Assembly: GCA_903843965.1 (NCBI GenBank)
Contig: CAIMRY010000005.1
Location: forward strand, 62,001-126,000
DNA: 64,000 nt
Reading direction: 5' to 3'
DNA from: an uncultured delta proteobacterium
Lineage (GTDB): Bacteria; Desulfobacterota; Desulfovibrionia; Desulfovibrionales; Desulfovibrionaceae
In this document: positions 57,913 to 63,760 of the stretch, piece by piece
Numbering within the stretch: the first letter of the stretch is position 1
Layout of the letters: every line of letters starts with the position of its first letter
Made by a program: the position numbers and the translations under genes
Notes under the pieces: generated by a model
What the model was told of the DNA's origin: nothing
What the model saw: only the letters and a program-made list of their open reading frames with translations
The model's database searches: none

Positions 57913-59190
57913 CTATCTCTCGTCAATGGGCACGTAGTCGCGCCGGTCAAGCCCGACGTAGACCTGCCTGGGCCGATGGATCTTGGTCGTCTCCAGGTGC
58001 TCCTCGTACCAGTGGGCTATCCAACCGGGCATGCGCCCGATGGCGAACATCACCGGGAACATCTGCACCGGAATGTTCAGCGCGCGCAAGATGATGCCTG
58101 AGTAGAAGTCCACGTTGGGGTACAGCTTGCGCTGCACAAAGTACTCGTCGGCCAGGGCCAGCTGCTCCAGCTCCATGGCCAGGTCCATGATCTCGTCCAG
58201 CTTGCCCAGCTTCAGGAGCAGTTCGTGGGTCGCCTGCTTGAGGATCTTGGCGCGCGGGTCGAAATTCTTGTAGATGCGGTGGCCGAAGCCCATGAGCCGG
58301 AACTTCTTCTGCTTGACCATCTCCAGCACCTGGCGCGGGGAGTTCTGCCCGTCGCGGATCTGCTCCAGCATCTCCACCGCGCCCGCGTTGGCGCCGCCGT
58401 GCAGCCGCCCCCACAGCGCGCAGATGCCCGCAGAGACCGAGGCGAAGAGATTGGCCTGGGTGGAGCCCACCATGCGCACAGTAGAACAGGAGCAATTCTG
58501 CTCGTGGTCCGCGTGCAGCACCAAAAACAGGCTCAGGGCGCGCACGGCCTCGGGCGAGGGGTCACAGTGCTTGTGCGGGATGGAGAACATCATGTGCAAA
58601 AAGTTGCGGCAATAGGACAGGTCCGGGTTGGGGTACATGAACGGCAGGCCGCGGCTCTTGCGGTAGCTGAAGGCGGCGATGGTGCGCACCTTGCTGATGA
58701 TTTTCGAGGCCGCGAGGTAGAACTCGCCCCGGCTCTCGATCTCCAGCAGATCCGGGTGGTAGCAGCCGAGCGAGTTGATGATGGCCGAGAGCATGGCCAT
58801 GGGGTGGCCGTTGGGCGGAAAGCCCTCGAAATGGTGGCGCATGTCCTCGTGCAGCAGTTCCTCCGCGCAGAGCCCGGCGGAAAAGCGCGAAAGCTGCTCG
58901 CGGGTGGGCAGCTCGCCGAAGATGAGCAGCCAGGCGGTCTCGGTGAAGGAGCCGCGCTCGGCGATCTGTTCAATGGGATAGCCGCGGTAACGCAGGATGC
59001 CCTTTTCGCCGTCCACAAAGGTGATGGAGCTCTTGCACGGGCCGGTGTTCACGTAGCCGGGATCATAGGTGATGAACCCGGTGTCGGCCCGCAGCCGCGT
59101 GACGTCCAGGGCCTTTTCGCCCAGGGTGCCCTCGACGATGGGCAGCTCATAGGTCTTGCCGTCGATGATCAATTGCGCAGTCTTGGTCAT
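57913..59190 (-). CDS. gltA: Citrate synthase (si type)
   Basis: Condenses acetyl-CoA and oxaloacetate. The 425-residue hexameric-type enzyme has the catalytic residues in HADHEQNCS (first His region), GRLHGGANAGAVEML, FGHRIYKNFDPRAK (second His) and, near the C-terminus, FPVMFAIGRMPGWIAHW. The N-terminal 50 residues form the beta-domain of the NADH-sensitive type found in Gram-negative bacteria. The ATG at 59190 has only a weak AAGAGAG. Well-studied Desulfovibrio strains are known for a Re-type citrate synthase unrelated in sequence, so an si-type gene is of note. It is divergent from the Fe-S gene, sharing a 262-base control region. Confidence 0.95.
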   Translation of the reverse strand: MTKTAQLIIDGKTYELPIVEGTLGEKALDVTRLRADTGFITYDPGYVNTGPCKSSITFVDGEKGILRYRGYPIEQIAERGSFTETAWLLIFGELPTREQLSRFSAGLCAEELLHEDMRHHFEGFPPNGHPMAMLSAIINSLGCYHPDLLEIESRGEFYLAASKIISKVRTIAAFSYRKSRGLPFMYPNPDLSYCRNFLHMMFSIPHKHCDPSPEAVRALSLFLVLHADHEQNCSCSTVRMVGSTQANLFASVSAGICALWGRLHGGANAGAVEMLEQIRDGQNSPRQVLEMVKQKKFRLMGFGHRIYKNFDPRAKILKQATHELLLKLGKLDEIMDLAMELEQLALADEYFVQRKLYPNVDFYSGIILRALNIPVQMFPVMFAIGRMPGWIAHWYEEHLETTKIHRPRQVYVGLDRRDYVPIDER

Positions 59191-59328
59191 TGTCTGTACA
59201 CTCTCTTCAGTAGGCTGGGGCAGGGCGCCGACGATTCTTCGCCCCCCCTCTCCGGAGCAAACCCGGAAACTCAATGGCCCTCGTACCCGGATTCGTTGCC
59301 CTTGTCCAGCGCGCCCCCTTGAACCCGT

Positions 59329-59342
59329 TGACAATTATGTCA
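59329..59342. promoter_or_regulatory. Dyad TGACA-N4-TGTCA in the gltA / Fe-S control region
   Basis: TGACAATTATGTCA is an inverted repeat with 5-base arms around ATTA. It resembles sites of CRP/FNR-family regulators in size and symmetry but is not an exact match for FNR or CRP. It lies about 45 bases upstream of the predicted -35 of the Fe-S gene and 139 bases from the gltA ATG. Confidence 0.4.
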
Positions 59343-59386: not shown

Positions 59387-59414
59387 TTGCGCTTTTCAAA
59401 AATCGTCTTATAGT
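59387..59414 (+). promoter_or_regulatory. Promoter of the Fe-S / cytochrome-b pair
   Basis: TTGCGC (59387-59392), a 16-base spacer and TATAGT (59409-59414), about 40 bases before the GTG start codon. A reasonable sigma-70 match. Confidence 0.5.
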
Positions 59415-59452: not shown

Positions 59453-60505
59453 GTGAAGAAACATACGCCCTGCACCCCCAACCTCTCGCGCCGACGTTTT
59501 CTGGCCAGCCTCGGCCTTGGCGGGCTGGGACTCGTTTTGCCGAGCGCGTCCCACGCGGCCAAGTCGCTCGCGGACGAGGAGCTGGTGACCCTGCATGACC
59601 TCACCAAATGCGTGGGCTGCGGGGCCTGCGTGGACGCCTGCCGCGAGGCCAACGCCCACAAGTTCCCGGAGCCCGTCCGGCCCTTTCCGCCCATGTTCCC
59701 GGCCAGCGTCAAGGTCGAGGACTGGTCCACCAAGCGCCAGATAATCGACCGCCTGACGCCCTACAACTGGCTCTACATCCAGTCCGCCCACGGGCAGTTC
59801 CAGGGCCAGCGCTTCGACATCCACATCCCCCGGCGCTGCATGCACTGCCAGAACCCGCCCTGCGCCAACCTCTGCCCCTGGGGCGCGGCTGCGCGCGAGA
59901 AGAACGGCGTGGTGCGCATCGACCCCGAGATATGCCTGGGCGGGGCCAAGTGCAAGACCGTGTGCCCCTGGGCCATCCCCATGCGCCAAACCGGCGTGGG
60001 CCTGTACCTGAAGCTCATGCCCCGCTATGGCGGCAACGGCGTGATGTACAAGTGCGACCGCTGCTATGACCGCCTGGCCAAGGGCCAGAAACCGGCCTGC
60101 GTGGAGGCCTGCCCTTACGGCGTGCAGGAAATCGGCCCGCGTTCCGACATCGTGGCCAAGGCCCACGCCCTGGCCCGCAACATCGACGGCTACATTTACG
60201 GCGAGACCGAGAACGGCGGCACCAACTCGCTCTACGTCTCGCCCGTGCCCTTCGACATCCTCGACGCCGCCGTGACCGCCGGGCCGGGCAAGCCGGACCT
60301 GGCCAAGGCCCCGGACAAGATGGCCGACGAGACCCGCATGGCTTACGCCGCGCTGTTCGCGCCCGTGGCCGGCATCATCGCCGGGGCCCTGCGCCTGGGC
60401 TCGCGCCTGTCCGGCGGCGACGACGCCGACGAGACGGACGACACGCCCAAACGCCCGCCGGACGCGGGCACGCCAGACGACGAACACAAGGGGACCTGGT
60501 CATGA
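59453..60505 (+). CDS. Tat-exported four-cluster ferredoxin (HybA-like)
   Basis: A 350-residue periplasmic electron-transfer protein. A Tat signal is clear (SRRRFLASLG at residues 12-21). Four cysteine groups fit four [4Fe-4S] clusters: CVGCGACVDAC, CMHCQNPPCANLC, CLGGAKCKTVC and CDRCYDRLAKGQKPACVEAC. A hydrophobic stretch near the C-terminus (YAALFAPVAGIIAGALRLG) could be a membrane anchor, as in HybA of E. coli hydrogenase 2. The GTG at 59453 follows GGGAG. The next gene overlaps by ATGA and encodes a small membrane protein. No molybdenum or hydrogenase catalytic subunit is in this operon, so the pair may be a general periplasm-to-quinone link (inference). Confidence 0.88.
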   Translation: MKKHTPCTPNLSRRRFLASLGLGGLGLVLPSASHAAKSLADEELVTLHDLTKCVGCGACVDACREANAHKFPEPVRPFPPMFPASVKVEDWSTKRQIIDRLTPYNWLYIQSAHGQFQGQRFDIHIPRRCMHCQNPPCANLCPWGAAAREKNGVVRIDPEICLGGAKCKTVCPWAIPMRQTGVGLYLKLMPRYGGNGVMYKCDRCYDRLAKGQKPACVEACPYGVQEIGPRSDIVAKAHALARNIDGYIYGETENGGTNSLYVSPVPFDILDAAVTAGPGKPDLAKAPDKMADETRMAYAALFAPVAGIIAGALRLGSRLSGGDDADETDDTPKRPPDAGTPDDEHKGTWS

Positions 60506-60972
60506 GCCTGCCTGTTTCGCGCCGCATGTCCTGGGCCTACGTGCTGGTTTTGTCCCTGCTGGCCGTCACCGGCGCCATGCAGATGCCCATCGCCAGCCGC
60601 TACCGCATCGTGGCCGTGCCCGGCCTGGCCTGGCTGGGCGACTTCTGGCTCACGCACAGGCTGCACTACCTCGGGGCCATCGCTCTTTTGGCCCTGTGCA
60701 GCTACCTGACCACCCGCTGGCTGCTCGAATGGCGGCGCAGCTATGCCCTAACCGCCTTCGGCCTGGTCCGGGCCGGGCTGCTGGCCGGGATCATCGCCAC
60801 CGGGGCAGTGCGCGTGCTCAAAAACCTGCCGAACGTGTCCTTCGCCCCCGCGCCGACCATGCTCGTGGACTGGACGCACCTGGGCCTTGCCGTGCTGCTG
60901 GGCCTGCTGGCCCTGGTCAGACTGGTCCTGGCCAGGCTGGCGGTCAAGGCCAGCAGCTTCCGCCCGCGCTGA
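60502..60972 (+). CDS. Small four-helix membrane protein, cytochrome-b-like
   Basis: A 156-residue protein with four predicted transmembrane helices (about 10-28, 52-70, 84-103, 118-142). Histidines sit at helix edges in LTHRLHYLGAI and VDWTHLGLAVLL, spaced as expected for bis-His haem b ligation, and the size resembles DUF4405/cytochrome b561-type subunits. I do not recognise an exact family. It overlaps the Fe-S gene by four bases and is probably its membrane partner, exchanging electrons with menaquinone (inference). It ends 18 bases before a strong terminator. Confidence 0.75.
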   Translation: MSLPVSRRMSWAYVLVLSLLAVTGAMQMPIASRYRIVAVPGLAWLGDFWLTHRLHYLGAIALLALCSYLTTRWLLEWRRSYALTAFGLVRAGLLAGIIATGAVRVLKNLPNVSFAPAPTMLVDWTHLGLAVLLGLLALVRLVLARLAVKASSFRPR

Positions 60973-60990
60973 GGCCGGTCGAAAACGCCA

Positions 60991-61030
60991 AAGGGGCCAT
61001 GCCGAACATCTGCGGCATGGCCCCTTTTTT
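60991..61030 (+). terminator. Intrinsic terminator of the Fe-S / cytochrome-b operon
   Basis: A perfect 14-base-pair stem (AAGGGGCCATGCCG) with an 8-base loop, followed by T6 (partly in the stem). One of the strongest terminators of the window. Confidence 0.93.
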
Positions 61031-61054: not shown

Positions 61055-61217
61055 TAGGGCCTGTTTCCAAAAGATGGATTTTGTCCCCTGGTGAGGAGAG
61101 AGACGATTTAGGGCCAGGGATAGTGCTCAGGCGGTACAGCCCTGGACCAAAACCGGCTCACGCCTGTAGACAGGCAAAGGCCCAGGGGGGAAAAGACACT
61201 TTGAGAGACAGGCCCTA
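61055..61217. mobile_element. 163-base MITE-like element with imperfect terminal inverted repeats
   Basis: The ends read TAGGGCCTGTTTCCAAAAG and, inverted, TAGGGCCTGTCTCTCAAAG, 15-16 of 19 bases alike. Inner parts (TTTTGTCCCCTGG at about 61079 and the complement of CCCAGGGGGGAAAAG near 61181) continue the symmetry. Both ends carry CTAG, which could be a target duplication (or TA plus repeat ends). There is no gene inside. The right end supplies the TAG stop of hypC. An IS-derived non-autonomous element is the most likely explanation; a chance inverted repeat acting as a transcription signal is the alternative. Confidence 0.5.
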
Positions 61218-61475
61218 GACCACGCAGTCCTGCACGATGCCCGCCTCTTCGGCGGCGGCCATGACGTCGCGCAGGACCTGGAGGGTCTCGCGCGCCTCCT
61301 CGGGGTGCAGCTTGCGGATGGCGAAGCCCGCGTGGATGATGAGGAAGTCGCCCAGGGCCACCTCTTCGTCCAGGATCATGAGCGAGGCGTGGACCGTGGT
61401 GTCGCCCTCGCCCACGCGGCAGGTGGCCACGTCGTCGGAAATTTCGATGATCTCAGCCGGGACTGCTAGGCACAT
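61215..61475 (-). CDS. hypC: Hydrogenase maturation chaperone HypC
   Basis: Chaperone that delivers the Fe(CN)2CO unit to the hydrogenase large subunit. The 86-residue protein starts with the diagnostic MCLAVP, whose Cys2 is essential, and shows GDFLIIHAGFAIRKL, also typical. The ATG at 61475 has AGGAGAGAG and overlaps the protease gene by 10 bases. It is the last gene of the hyn operon. The stop codon is formed by the first bases of the inverted-repeat element. Confidence 0.95.
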   Translation of the reverse strand: MCLAVPAEIIEISDDVATCRVGEGDTTVHASLMILDEEVALGDFLIIHAGFAIRKLHPEEARETLQVLRDVMAAAEEAGIVQDCVV

Positions 61476-61999
61476 GGTTCTCTCTCCTGTGTGATCGGGC
61501 TGGGATTGGCCTTGAGGCTGCACGAGCCCCCGGCCTTGACGACCTCTTCCAGCACAAAGCCCATAAGGGCCTCCTGGCGCCCCTTGGCGACCTCGGAGAT
61601 GCCCACGTTCAGGGTGTGGTAGTCAAAGGGCTCCATGCCGATGATCACGGCATCGGGCCTGGTGCCCACAATCTCGCACATGATGAGCGTGTCCACAAGG
61701 TCTGTCTGGTGCATGGAGTCCTTGAAGGCCAGGCTCTTGCGCAGGTCCTCCCCGGTGAGCCGGTAGATGCTGCCGGGCTCGCCGTCGCCCAGGACCGCAT
61801 CGACCACGATGAGCAGGTCGCAGCCCATGATCGGGTCCATGAGCCGGGTGCCCAGGGTGCCGCCGTCCATGACCGTGACGTTGTCGGACAGGTCGTACAG
61901 CCGCGCTATCTCGTCCGCCGCGCAGACGCCGATGCCCTCGTCGGTGAAGAGGATGTTGCCCACGCCAAGGACCAGGATGCGTTTGGGAGAATCGGTCAT
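61466..61999 (-). CDS. hynC: [NiFe] hydrogenase maturation protease (HyaD/HybD family)
   Basis: Endopeptidase that removes the C-terminal extension of the large subunit after nickel insertion. The 177-residue protein shows GVGNILFTDEGIGV at the N-terminus; nickel-sensing ligands correspond to E21, D67 and H97, the positions of E16, D62 and H93 in HybD. The gene follows the large subunit after an 81-base gap that contains a terminator-like hairpin, and it overlaps hypC. The name hynC follows usage in Desulfovibrio hyn operons. Confidence 0.93.
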   Translation of the reverse strand: MTDSPKRILVLGVGNILFTDEGIGVCAADEIARLYDLSDNVTVMDGGTLGTRLMDPIMGCDLLIVVDAVLGDGEPGSIYRLTGEDLRKSLAFKDSMHQTDLVDTLIMCEIVGTRPDAVIIGMEPFDYHTLNVGISEVAKGRQEALMGFVLEEVVKAGGSCSLKANPSPITQEREPCA

Positions 62000-62080: not shown

Positions 62081-63760
62081 TTACAACACCTTGAAGCTGG
62101 CGGTCTGGCCGGTCTTGGCGTCGAGCACGTGCACGCCGCAGGCGATGCAGGGGTCGAAGCTGTGGACCGTGCGCAGGATCTCAACCGGGCGGGCGGGATC
62201 GAAGATCGGGGTGCCCATGAGGGCTTCCTCGACCGGACCCAGCTTGCCATTGGCGCAGCGGGGGCCAAGGCTCCAGGTGGAGGGCACCACGAGCTGGAAG
62301 TTCTCGATCTTGCCCTTCTTGATCTTGATCCAGTGGGACAGAGCGCCGCGCGGGGCCTGCACAAAGCCGACGCCTTCGGCCTCGTTGGGCATCTTCCACG
62401 GGGTGTACAGCTCGGTGTCGCCACTCTTGACGTTGCCGACCAGGGCGTCGAGCCAGGTCTGCATCTGGTTGGCGATGACCAGGCACTCGATGCCGCGGGC
62501 AGCGGTGCGGCCCAGGGTCGAGAACAGGGCCTCGGGGCCCACGCCCAGGTACTTCAGGACCAGGGTGACAGCGTCGACCGTGGGCTTGTGGCCCTTGGCG
62601 AAGGCGACCAGAACGGTGGCCAGGGGGCCGGTTTCGCAGGCTTCGCCGTTGTAGCGGGGAGCCTTCATCCAGGAGTAGCGGTCCTTGTCCTCAAGCTTGG
62701 TGTACTTGGGCTCGGTGACGCCGTTGTACGGATGATGGGCCTTGTCGCCAACGTACCAGCTGTGCTTGACGTGCTCTTCGATCTTCTTCTGGTCCATGGC
62801 CTGGGGCTTGGCGATGTCGCGCTTCATGATCACGCCGGGGGCGAAGAAGCGGGAGTCATGGTTGTACTCGTCGGTGGGGAACTCGCCGAAGCTGATGAAG
62901 TTGCTGGTGCCGCCAATGCCGGCCCAGTCTTTGTAGAAGCTGGCCACGGCGAGCAGGTCCGGGATGTAGAAGTCGCGGATGAAGGCGATGACTTCGTCGG
63001 TCAGGGCCTTGTACTCGGCGATGCGGTCGGGCTTCAGGGCATCGTAGTTAGTCACGCCGCCGACGACGGTGAACTGGGTGTGCGGGTTCTTGGCGCCGAA
63101 GATCGCCATGGCGCGGGCGGCCTTGACCTGCATGTGCAGGGCGTCAAGGTAGTGCTTCACGGCCATGAGATCGGCCTCGGCGGGCAGGTAGTAGGCTTCG
63201 TTCTTCTTCTCGCCCAGGAAGTAGGCGTTGGTGAAGATGCCGAGCTTGCCGGAGTCGATCAGGGCCTTGACCTTGGTCTGCACGGCCTTGAACTGGTCCG
63301 CGGTCTCTTTGCGGTTGGCGTTCAGGCTGTTGGACAGCGCGGCGGTCTTGGCGGGGTCGGCCTGCAGGGCGTTGGCCACGTTGACCCAGTCAAGGGCGTG
63401 CAGGTGATAGAAGTGCACGATGTGGTCGTGCAGGTACTGCGAACCCATGACCAGGTTGCGCATGATGGTGGCGTTCTTCGGGATCTTCACCTTGACGGCG
63501 TTGTCGACCGCACGGGTGGAGCACAGGGCGTGCACGTAGGTGCAGACGCCGCAGGCGCGCTGGGTGAAGTGCTGGGCATCGCGGGGGTCGCGGCCCTTCA
63601 GGATGATTTCCAGGCCGCGGAACAGCTGGGAGCTGCTGCGGACATCGACGATTTTGCCGTTCTCGACGGTGGCGTCGATGCGCAGGTGGCCTTCAATACG
63701 AGTGACCGGGTCGACGACGACCGGGCCGGAGAAGTTGCTCTGGGGCGTTTTGGGCGCCAT
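62081..63760 (-). CDS. hynA: Periplasmic [NiFe] hydrogenase large subunit
   Basis: Carries the Ni-Fe active site for reversible H2 oxidation. The 559-residue precursor has the L1 motif RIEGHLR...RACGVCTYVHA with nickel ligands C70 and C73 and the L2 motif DPCIACGVH with C538 and C541. C538 is cysteine, so this is a [NiFe], not a [NiFeSe], enzyme. The 15 residues after H544 (VLDAKTGQTASFKVL) are the extension removed on maturation. AGGAGG precedes the ATG. The protein has no signal peptide of its own and is exported with the small subunit. Confidence 0.98.
   Translation of the reverse strand: MAPKTPQSNFSGPVVVDPVTRIEGHLRIDATVENGKIVDVRSSSQLFRGLEIILKGRDPRDAQHFTQRACGVCTYVHALCSTRAVDNAVKVKIPKNATIMRNLVMGSQYLHDHIVHFYHLHALDWVNVANALQADPAKTAALSNSLNANRKETADQFKAVQTKVKALIDSGKLGIFTNAYFLGEKKNEAYYLPAEADLMAVKHYLDALHMQVKAARAMAIFGAKNPHTQFTVVGGVTNYDALKPDRIAEYKALTDEVIAFIRDFYIPDLLAVASFYKDWAGIGGTSNFISFGEFPTDEYNHDSRFFAPGVIMKRDIAKPQAMDQKKIEEHVKHSWYVGDKAHHPYNGVTEPKYTKLEDKDRYSWMKAPRYNGEACETGPLATVLVAFAKGHKPTVDAVTLVLKYLGVGPEALFSTLGRTAARGIECLVIANQMQTWLDALVGNVKSGDTELYTPWKMPNEAEGVGFVQAPRGALSHWIKIKKGKIENFQLVVPSTWSLGPRCANGKLGPVEEALMGTPIFDPARPVEILRTVHSFDPCIACGVHVLDAKTGQTASFKVL

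Follow-up and report, generated by a model that had tools for sequence, protein, structure and literature searches.

A tail-anchored ferredoxin and a compact cytochrome b encoded side by side in Humidesulfovibrio: probably the ferredoxin-cytochrome half of the Ohc operon, kept alone

The two overlapping genes described here lie in a 64,000-nucleotide stretch of DNA from an uncultured, sulfate-reducing member of the Desulfovibrionaceae (the whole of which we term 'the window') and encode a ferredoxin (FER) and a small membrane protein (CYB). In our view they probably constitute a conserved beta/gamma electron-transfer module that corresponds to the ferredoxin-cytochrome half of the Ohc operon and has been kept alone in this genus (Humidesulfovibrio, as judged by the nearest named contigs). 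The two products would act as a beta-type and a gamma-type subunit, comparable to FdnH (Fe-S) and FdnI (cytochrome) of formate dehydrogenase-N, with no catalytic subunit beside them. The pair recurs across the phylum, far more than chance could explain.

The gene pair and its locus

The features of the locus are as follows (positions are those of the window).

57913-59190, minus strand: citrate synthase, divergent neighbor, kept beside the pair in several genera
59328-59342, no strand assigned: palindrome TTGACA-N4-TGTCA between citrate synthase and FER, candidate regulator site
59387-59414, plus strand: candidate housekeeping-type promoter TTGCGC-N16-TATAGT, 5' of FER, from an alignment of nine loci of the genus
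59453-60505, plus strand: FER (350 residues), predicted Tat-exported, tail-anchored four-motif ferredoxin, an HmcB/HybA/FdnH-like beta subunit that takes the OhcB position in relatives
59453-59560, plus strand: Tat signal peptide of FER (NLSRRRFLASLG...), with SRRRF motif
60341-60397, plus strand: predicted C-terminal membrane tail of FER (residues 297-315, AYAALFAPVAGIIAGALRL), at the hydropathy maximum
60502-60972, plus strand: CYB (156 residues), compact four-helix, predicted one-haem FdnI-type cytochrome b, from alignment to FdnI-type homologues
60664-60666, plus strand: codon of CYB His55, equivalent to FdnI His57, predicted proximal haem ligand, invariant in 70/70 compact and 8/8 long homologues
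60877-60879, plus strand: codon of CYB His126, equivalent to FdnI His155, predicted proximal haem ligand, equally invariant (70/70 and 8/8)
60990-61030, no strand assigned: terminator hairpin between the pair and hyn, with a 15 bp stem, a T run and, on the opposite side, an A run
61215-61478 and 61466-61999: HypC and hydrogenase maturation protease, respectively, both convergent to the pair
62081-63760, minus strand: large subunit of a periplasmic [NiFe] hydrogenase, convergent to the pair and its neighbor in this genus only

An earlier note on this DNA had described a Tat-exported four-cluster ferredoxin overlapping a 156-residue four-helix protein, and both reading frames are present as described. 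A GGGAG ribosome site precedes the GTG start codon of FER at 59453, and the stop codon of FER is TGA (60503-60505); the ATG codon of CYB at 60502 overlaps that stop (ATGA), and CYB runs to 60972.

In the window's genus, the pair is located between the divergent citrate synthase gene and the convergent hyn genes. No hyn gene adjoins the pair outside of the genus in the loci read; of the two neighbors, citrate synthase is retained more widely. The TTG(C/T)...TTATA positions of the candidate promoter are conserved in the genus; it is not among the hits of a strict sigma-70 scan. The palindrome occurs in eight of nine loci of the genus with one variable base, and is the sole site of its kind in the window (0.3 expected). 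The hairpin between the pair and hyn has a predicted RNA fold of -36.4 kcal/mol (z of -5.25), and was not reported by a simple terminator scan.

The ferredoxin

Most relatives of FER carry a Tat motif at the place of SRRRF, and nearly all unfused relatives have a C-terminal tail at the place where FER has its own. (That tail was absent from the earlier description.) The protein contains fifteen cluster cysteines (C53/56/59/63, C129/132/137/141, C161/167/171 and C201/204/216/220), all of which are invariant among 45 relatives. The claim of 'four clusters' thus holds in that four motifs are present, with the amendment that one of the clusters has only three cysteine ligands. That third motif reads C-x2-G-x2-C-x3-C, with Gly164 replacing the expected fourth cysteine in 44 of the 45 relatives. 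In alignments to PDB chains, the equivalent position is a cysteine in FdnH (1kqf_B), a histidine in the beta subunit of ethylbenzene dehydrogenase (2ivf_B) and an alanine in 4ydd_B. Similar cysteine substitutions in NarH and ethylbenzene dehydrogenase accompany a [3Fe-4S] cluster located nearest the membrane haem, and by analogy the motif III cluster of FER is likely to be of the [3Fe-4S] type.

The PDB relatives of FER are 2ivf_B, 1kqf_B and 2vpw_B, and its closest curated models are those for HmcB (of the Hmc complex) and HybA (of hydrogenase 2), which are likewise Tat-exported and tail-anchored. However, FER scores far below the cut-offs of both (134 bits against 420 for HmcB, NF045715; 132.6 bits against 263 for HybA, PRK10882), and its partner is a cytochrome b rather than a cofactor-free subunit of the HybB/NrfD type. 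The window has no hybB beside FER and its hyn genes are convergent, so FER does not qualify as the HybA of a hydrogenase 2; nor do hmcACDEF accompany it in an operon, the neighbors of the pair being citrate synthase and hyn. An AlphaFold model of FER, computed with few close relatives as input, was unusable (pLDDT 32).

The cytochrome

CYB is predicted to contain four helices (residues 7-34, 46-80, 85-108 and 124-152). Neither the protein nor its profile produced a usable match in Pfam, NCBIfam or the PDB, and CYB itself was not matched by PF01292 or TIGR01583 (formate dehydrogenase gamma). Its AlphaFold model (mean pLDDT 67, again with few close relatives as input) is of low confidence and gave no significant Foldseek match. 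The assignment comes instead through longer homologues (from about 220 residues) that are encoded beside the same type of ferredoxin in deeper branches of the phylum. These long forms match PF01292 with 63-71 bits and TIGR01583 below its cut-off, can be aligned over their full length to FdnI of E. coli (1kqf_C; the phmmer match is weak, at E = 0.039), and have all four FdnI haem histidines (H18, H57, H155 and H169). The automatic alignment of 70 compact and eight long forms has gaps in the His169 column for six of the eight long ones; in a smaller alignment, their second TM4 histidine follows the first by 14 residues, as it does in FdnI. Judged through these homologues, CYB is a shortened FdnI-type subunit.

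Only two of the four histidines remain in CYB. All 70 compact forms retain the equivalents of His57 and His155 and have lost the TM1 histidine, and only one of the 70 has a histidine 9-22 residues past that of TM4. Two further parts are missing from the compact forms, namely the C-terminal tail and the loop on the cytoplasmic side that connects helices 2 and 3. CYB has three histidines in total, of which H55 and H126 are present in 45 of 45 relatives and H52 is variable (35 of 45). Most of the invariant residues (G24, P29, R33, Y34, W44, H55, G101, N108 and H126) fall in the predicted periplasmic half of the protein. In the structure of formate dehydrogenase-N, the ligands of the periplasm-proximal haem are His57 and His155, and those of the haem close to the cytoplasmic menaquinone site are His18 and His169. 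The earlier suggestion of histidines placed for haem b accordingly fits H55 and H126 and one predicted, periplasm-near haem; the ligands of a second haem are lost. Because the compact cytochrome lacks the ligands of the distal haem as well as the parts of the protein from which the menaquinone site is built, an FdnI-style site is absent according to the alignments, and the previously proposed link to menaquinone is not supported. Another quinone site may be present on the periplasmic side of CYB.

The pair as a whole resembles FdnH/FdnI in combining a four-motif, C-tailed Fe-S protein with a four-helix cytochrome b that keeps the periplasm-proximal haem ligands. It differs from FdnH/FdnI in the lack of a catalytic subunit, in the three-cysteine cluster motif of FER, and in the absence from CYB of the TM1 histidine, the second TM4 histidine, the cytoplasmic loop and the C-terminal tail.

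Distribution and conservation of the pair

The search for the gene pair in other genomes that the earlier note had called for indicated that the pair is conserved. CYB is present in 113 of 199 Desulfovibrionaceae and, as found with a profile built from 33 relatives, in 186 of 348 genomes of the class and 83 of 395 of the phylum, with FER adjoining CYB in nearly every neighborhood read; the reading as a two-gene Fe-S and cytochrome b module that lacks a catalytic subunit is supported. Fusions of FER to CYB exist at seven loci (L045, L056, L063, L064, L069, L160 and L161), for which the tree requires at least two changes, and support a joint function of the two proteins. In a tree of 78 ferredoxins, those with long partners form one clade (support 100/97) and those of the window's genus form a separate clade (100/100), while ferredoxins with compact or fused partners make up the rest (90/82), except for two divergent paralogues.

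Pairwise dN/dS values within the genus range from 0.22 to 0.48 for FER and from 0.32 to 0.69 for CYB. Of the 15 genomes of the genus in the family sample, 13 retain the pair; the two with no match are incomplete, at 73 and 86%. That retention, with dN/dS values of 0.22-0.69, makes it unlikely that the pair is a relic.

Pairs of this kind are not new. A 2024 survey of tail-anchored Tat proteins (Gallego-Parrilla et al., PMC10924467) described a two-gene module consisting of a tail-anchored Fe-S protein and an FdnI-related cytochrome b, present in many bacteria with no fixed neighborhood, apparently stand-alone and of unknown role; novelty of the minimal pair as such is not supported. The pair in the window shares with that module a ferredoxin with a Tat signal and a C-terminal helix, an adjacent cytochrome b (FdnI-related indirectly, via the long homologues) and the lack of a catalytic subunit. 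It differs in that its cytochrome is compact, with one predicted haem site rather than two, and in that its clade is tied to Ohc. The one-haem variant and its Ohc link appear to be new here; we found no description of the compact form in our incomplete coverage of the literature, which is weak evidence of absence.

Association with the octahaem cytochrome (Ohc) operon

In many relatives, FER and CYB are located directly 5' of ohcA and ohcC, with a divergent sigma-54 activator. The order FER-CYB-ohcA-ohcC with that activator occurs at 11 loci (L046, L054, L056, L064, L067, L068, L072, L073, L075, L076 and L126), three of which (L046, L054 and L126) display the full arrangement of citrate synthase, activator, FER, CYB, ohcA and ohcC. 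OhcA of these relatives corresponds to TIGR04315 (588 bits against a cut-off of 375) and OhcC to PF01292, and sigma-54 sites are found 5' of FER in most activator-bearing loci. The organization matches that of D. vulgaris ohcBAC (DVU3143-DVU3145) with its divergent activator DVU3142 (PMC4641369); a four-gene set has also been listed as 'OhcABB2C' (PMC6491731), and the Ohc complex of D. gigas has been proposed to feed the quinone pool (PMC4287179). The tentative identification of FER as the OhcB equivalent rests on this operon match and on homology to the ferredoxins of ohc operons.

Among the 113 Desulfovibrionaceae with CYB, OhcA is adjacent in 32 and encoded elsewhere in the genome in 25; the remaining 56 have no strong match to it. 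A strong OhcA match is present in 62 of the 199 genomes and occurs without CYB in only five; the co-occurrence has a Fisher p value of 1.6e-12, uncorrected for relatedness. The possibility that the pair is a fragment of a larger operon known in relatives, which the earlier note had named as damaging to its own proposal, thus largely applies. Since 56 of the 113 genomes have no OhcA, the pair may also serve a purpose other than Ohc. In other families, FER-CYB adjoins or lies near ohcA-ohcC at five loci (L152, L155, L174, L175 and L191), with the direct order FER-CYB-ohcA-ohcC at L174 and L191, and on that basis the association is probably old.

The window's locus, unlike these, has no ohcA, ohcC or sigma-54 promoter: citrate synthase stands in the place of a DVU3142-type divergent activator, and no convincing sigma-54 (-24/-12) site was found 5' of FER at this locus or in the genus. 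Searches of the window's own genome found no match to OhcA and no PF01292 protein, hence no OhcC.

Many genomes (loci L108-L119) carry ohcA-ohcC as a two-gene unit apart from FER-CYB, a sign that Ohc may be made up of two units that can exist apart, FER-CYB and OhcA-OhcC. In one genus, the pair is followed not by OhcA and OhcC but by a 720-residue protein in which a heptahaem cytochrome c is fused to a PF01292 cytochrome b (L061, 5334-7496, minus strand; L062, 5830-7992, minus strand). In several OhcA genes, a TGA codon in frame takes the place of a conserved cysteine codon (NNF[C/U]) and probably encodes selenocysteine (L055, 5969-7600, minus strand; L067, 6178-7707, minus strand; L119, 7879-9567, minus strand; L121, 7657-9390, plus strand); the octahaem OhcA family has been listed as a selenoprotein by genome annotation (PMC13188914).

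Proposed function and alternatives

The explanation that we favor is that the window's genus lost ohcA and ohcC, together with the neighboring sigma-54 activator and the corresponding promoter, while FER-CYB remained; we infer loss here rather than a separate gain. FER would fold with its clusters in the cytoplasm, be exported by the Tat pathway and be held at the membrane by its C-terminal helix. CYB would form the membrane part, with a single haem b near the periplasmic face bound by His55 and His126. The most likely electron route would connect a soluble periplasmic carrier (type I cytochrome c3 or similar) with the cluster chain of FER, from which the three-cysteine cluster nearest the membrane would pass electrons to the CYB haem, and from there to menaquinone or a partner membrane protein on the periplasmic side of the membrane. 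We advance more tentatively, as possible rather than probable, the further idea that CYB is a one-haem gamma subunit working with a four-cluster ferredoxin as a self-contained module, which exchanges electrons with menaquinone or a partner at the periplasmic face without electrons crossing the membrane. If true, the pair would be a non-electrogenic counterpart of FdnH-FdnI, and few periplasmic redox units of Fe-S protein and cytochrome b would be smaller.

A different direction of flow would make the pair a reverse or quinone-free module, in which electrons supplied by a membrane partner would reach a reductase in the periplasm (OhcA-type or other); in this genus the recipient would be an unlinked partner. 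The operon company of the pair is in keeping with it, comprising a multihaem cytochrome and a PF01292 cytochrome b (either OhcA and OhcC, or the heptahaem-b561 fusion of L061 and L062), as is the membership of OhcA, several examples of which contain the in-frame TGA, in the tetrathionate reductase family. However, with neither OhcA nor any PF01292 protein found, the usual Ohc partner is missing from the window's genome, and we consider this reading unlikely. The proposal that the pair is a compact link from the neighboring periplasmic HynAB hydrogenase to menaquinone seems to us distinctly improbable. It draws on the conservation of hyn as a neighbor in the window's genus, on the predicted anchoring of FER as an Fe-S protein on the periplasmic side of the membrane, and on the precedent of other Desulfovibrio complexes, which deliver to menaquinone the electrons gained from H2 oxidation in the periplasm (PMC8076601, PMC4287179). 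Yet that adjacency is confined to the genus in the loci read, the hyn genes are convergent and separated from the pair by a strong terminator, the genome encodes Qrc (QrcC, above cut-off), and CYB has neither a distal haem nor a quinone site of the FdnI type; with nothing but position in its favor, a hydrogenase link is not supported.

The absence of the activator, sigma-54 site, ohcA and ohcC from the genus locus could also mark the pair as a decaying, functionless remnant of a lost Ohc operon. We judge this very improbable, given the retention of the pair in the genus described above (the two exceptions being incomplete genomes), the preservation of all cluster cysteines and haem histidines with dN/dS below 1, and the new promoter-like element conserved in the genus.

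Sulfate reducers contain many redox modules with unclear wiring, and FER-CYB is present in about half of the sampled Desulfovibrionaceae, with a membrane subunit for which we found no family model. The compact CYB offers a clear test case of whether such a cytochrome b fold can work on the proximal haem alone, and raises the question of where its quinone or partner site lies. A two-unit Ohc, as suggested above, changes how that complex should be drawn.

Divergent copies and partners

A divergent second copy of FER-CYB is present at two loci (L070, 7212-8704, plus strand, where FER is about 42% identical; L164, 6936-8434, plus strand), in each case 3' of a gene for a multi-helix membrane protein and a gene of approximately 330 residues. 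At a further locus (L183, 3172-4182, plus strand), the long cytochrome b partner carries a C-terminal heavy-metal-associated (CopZ-like) domain.
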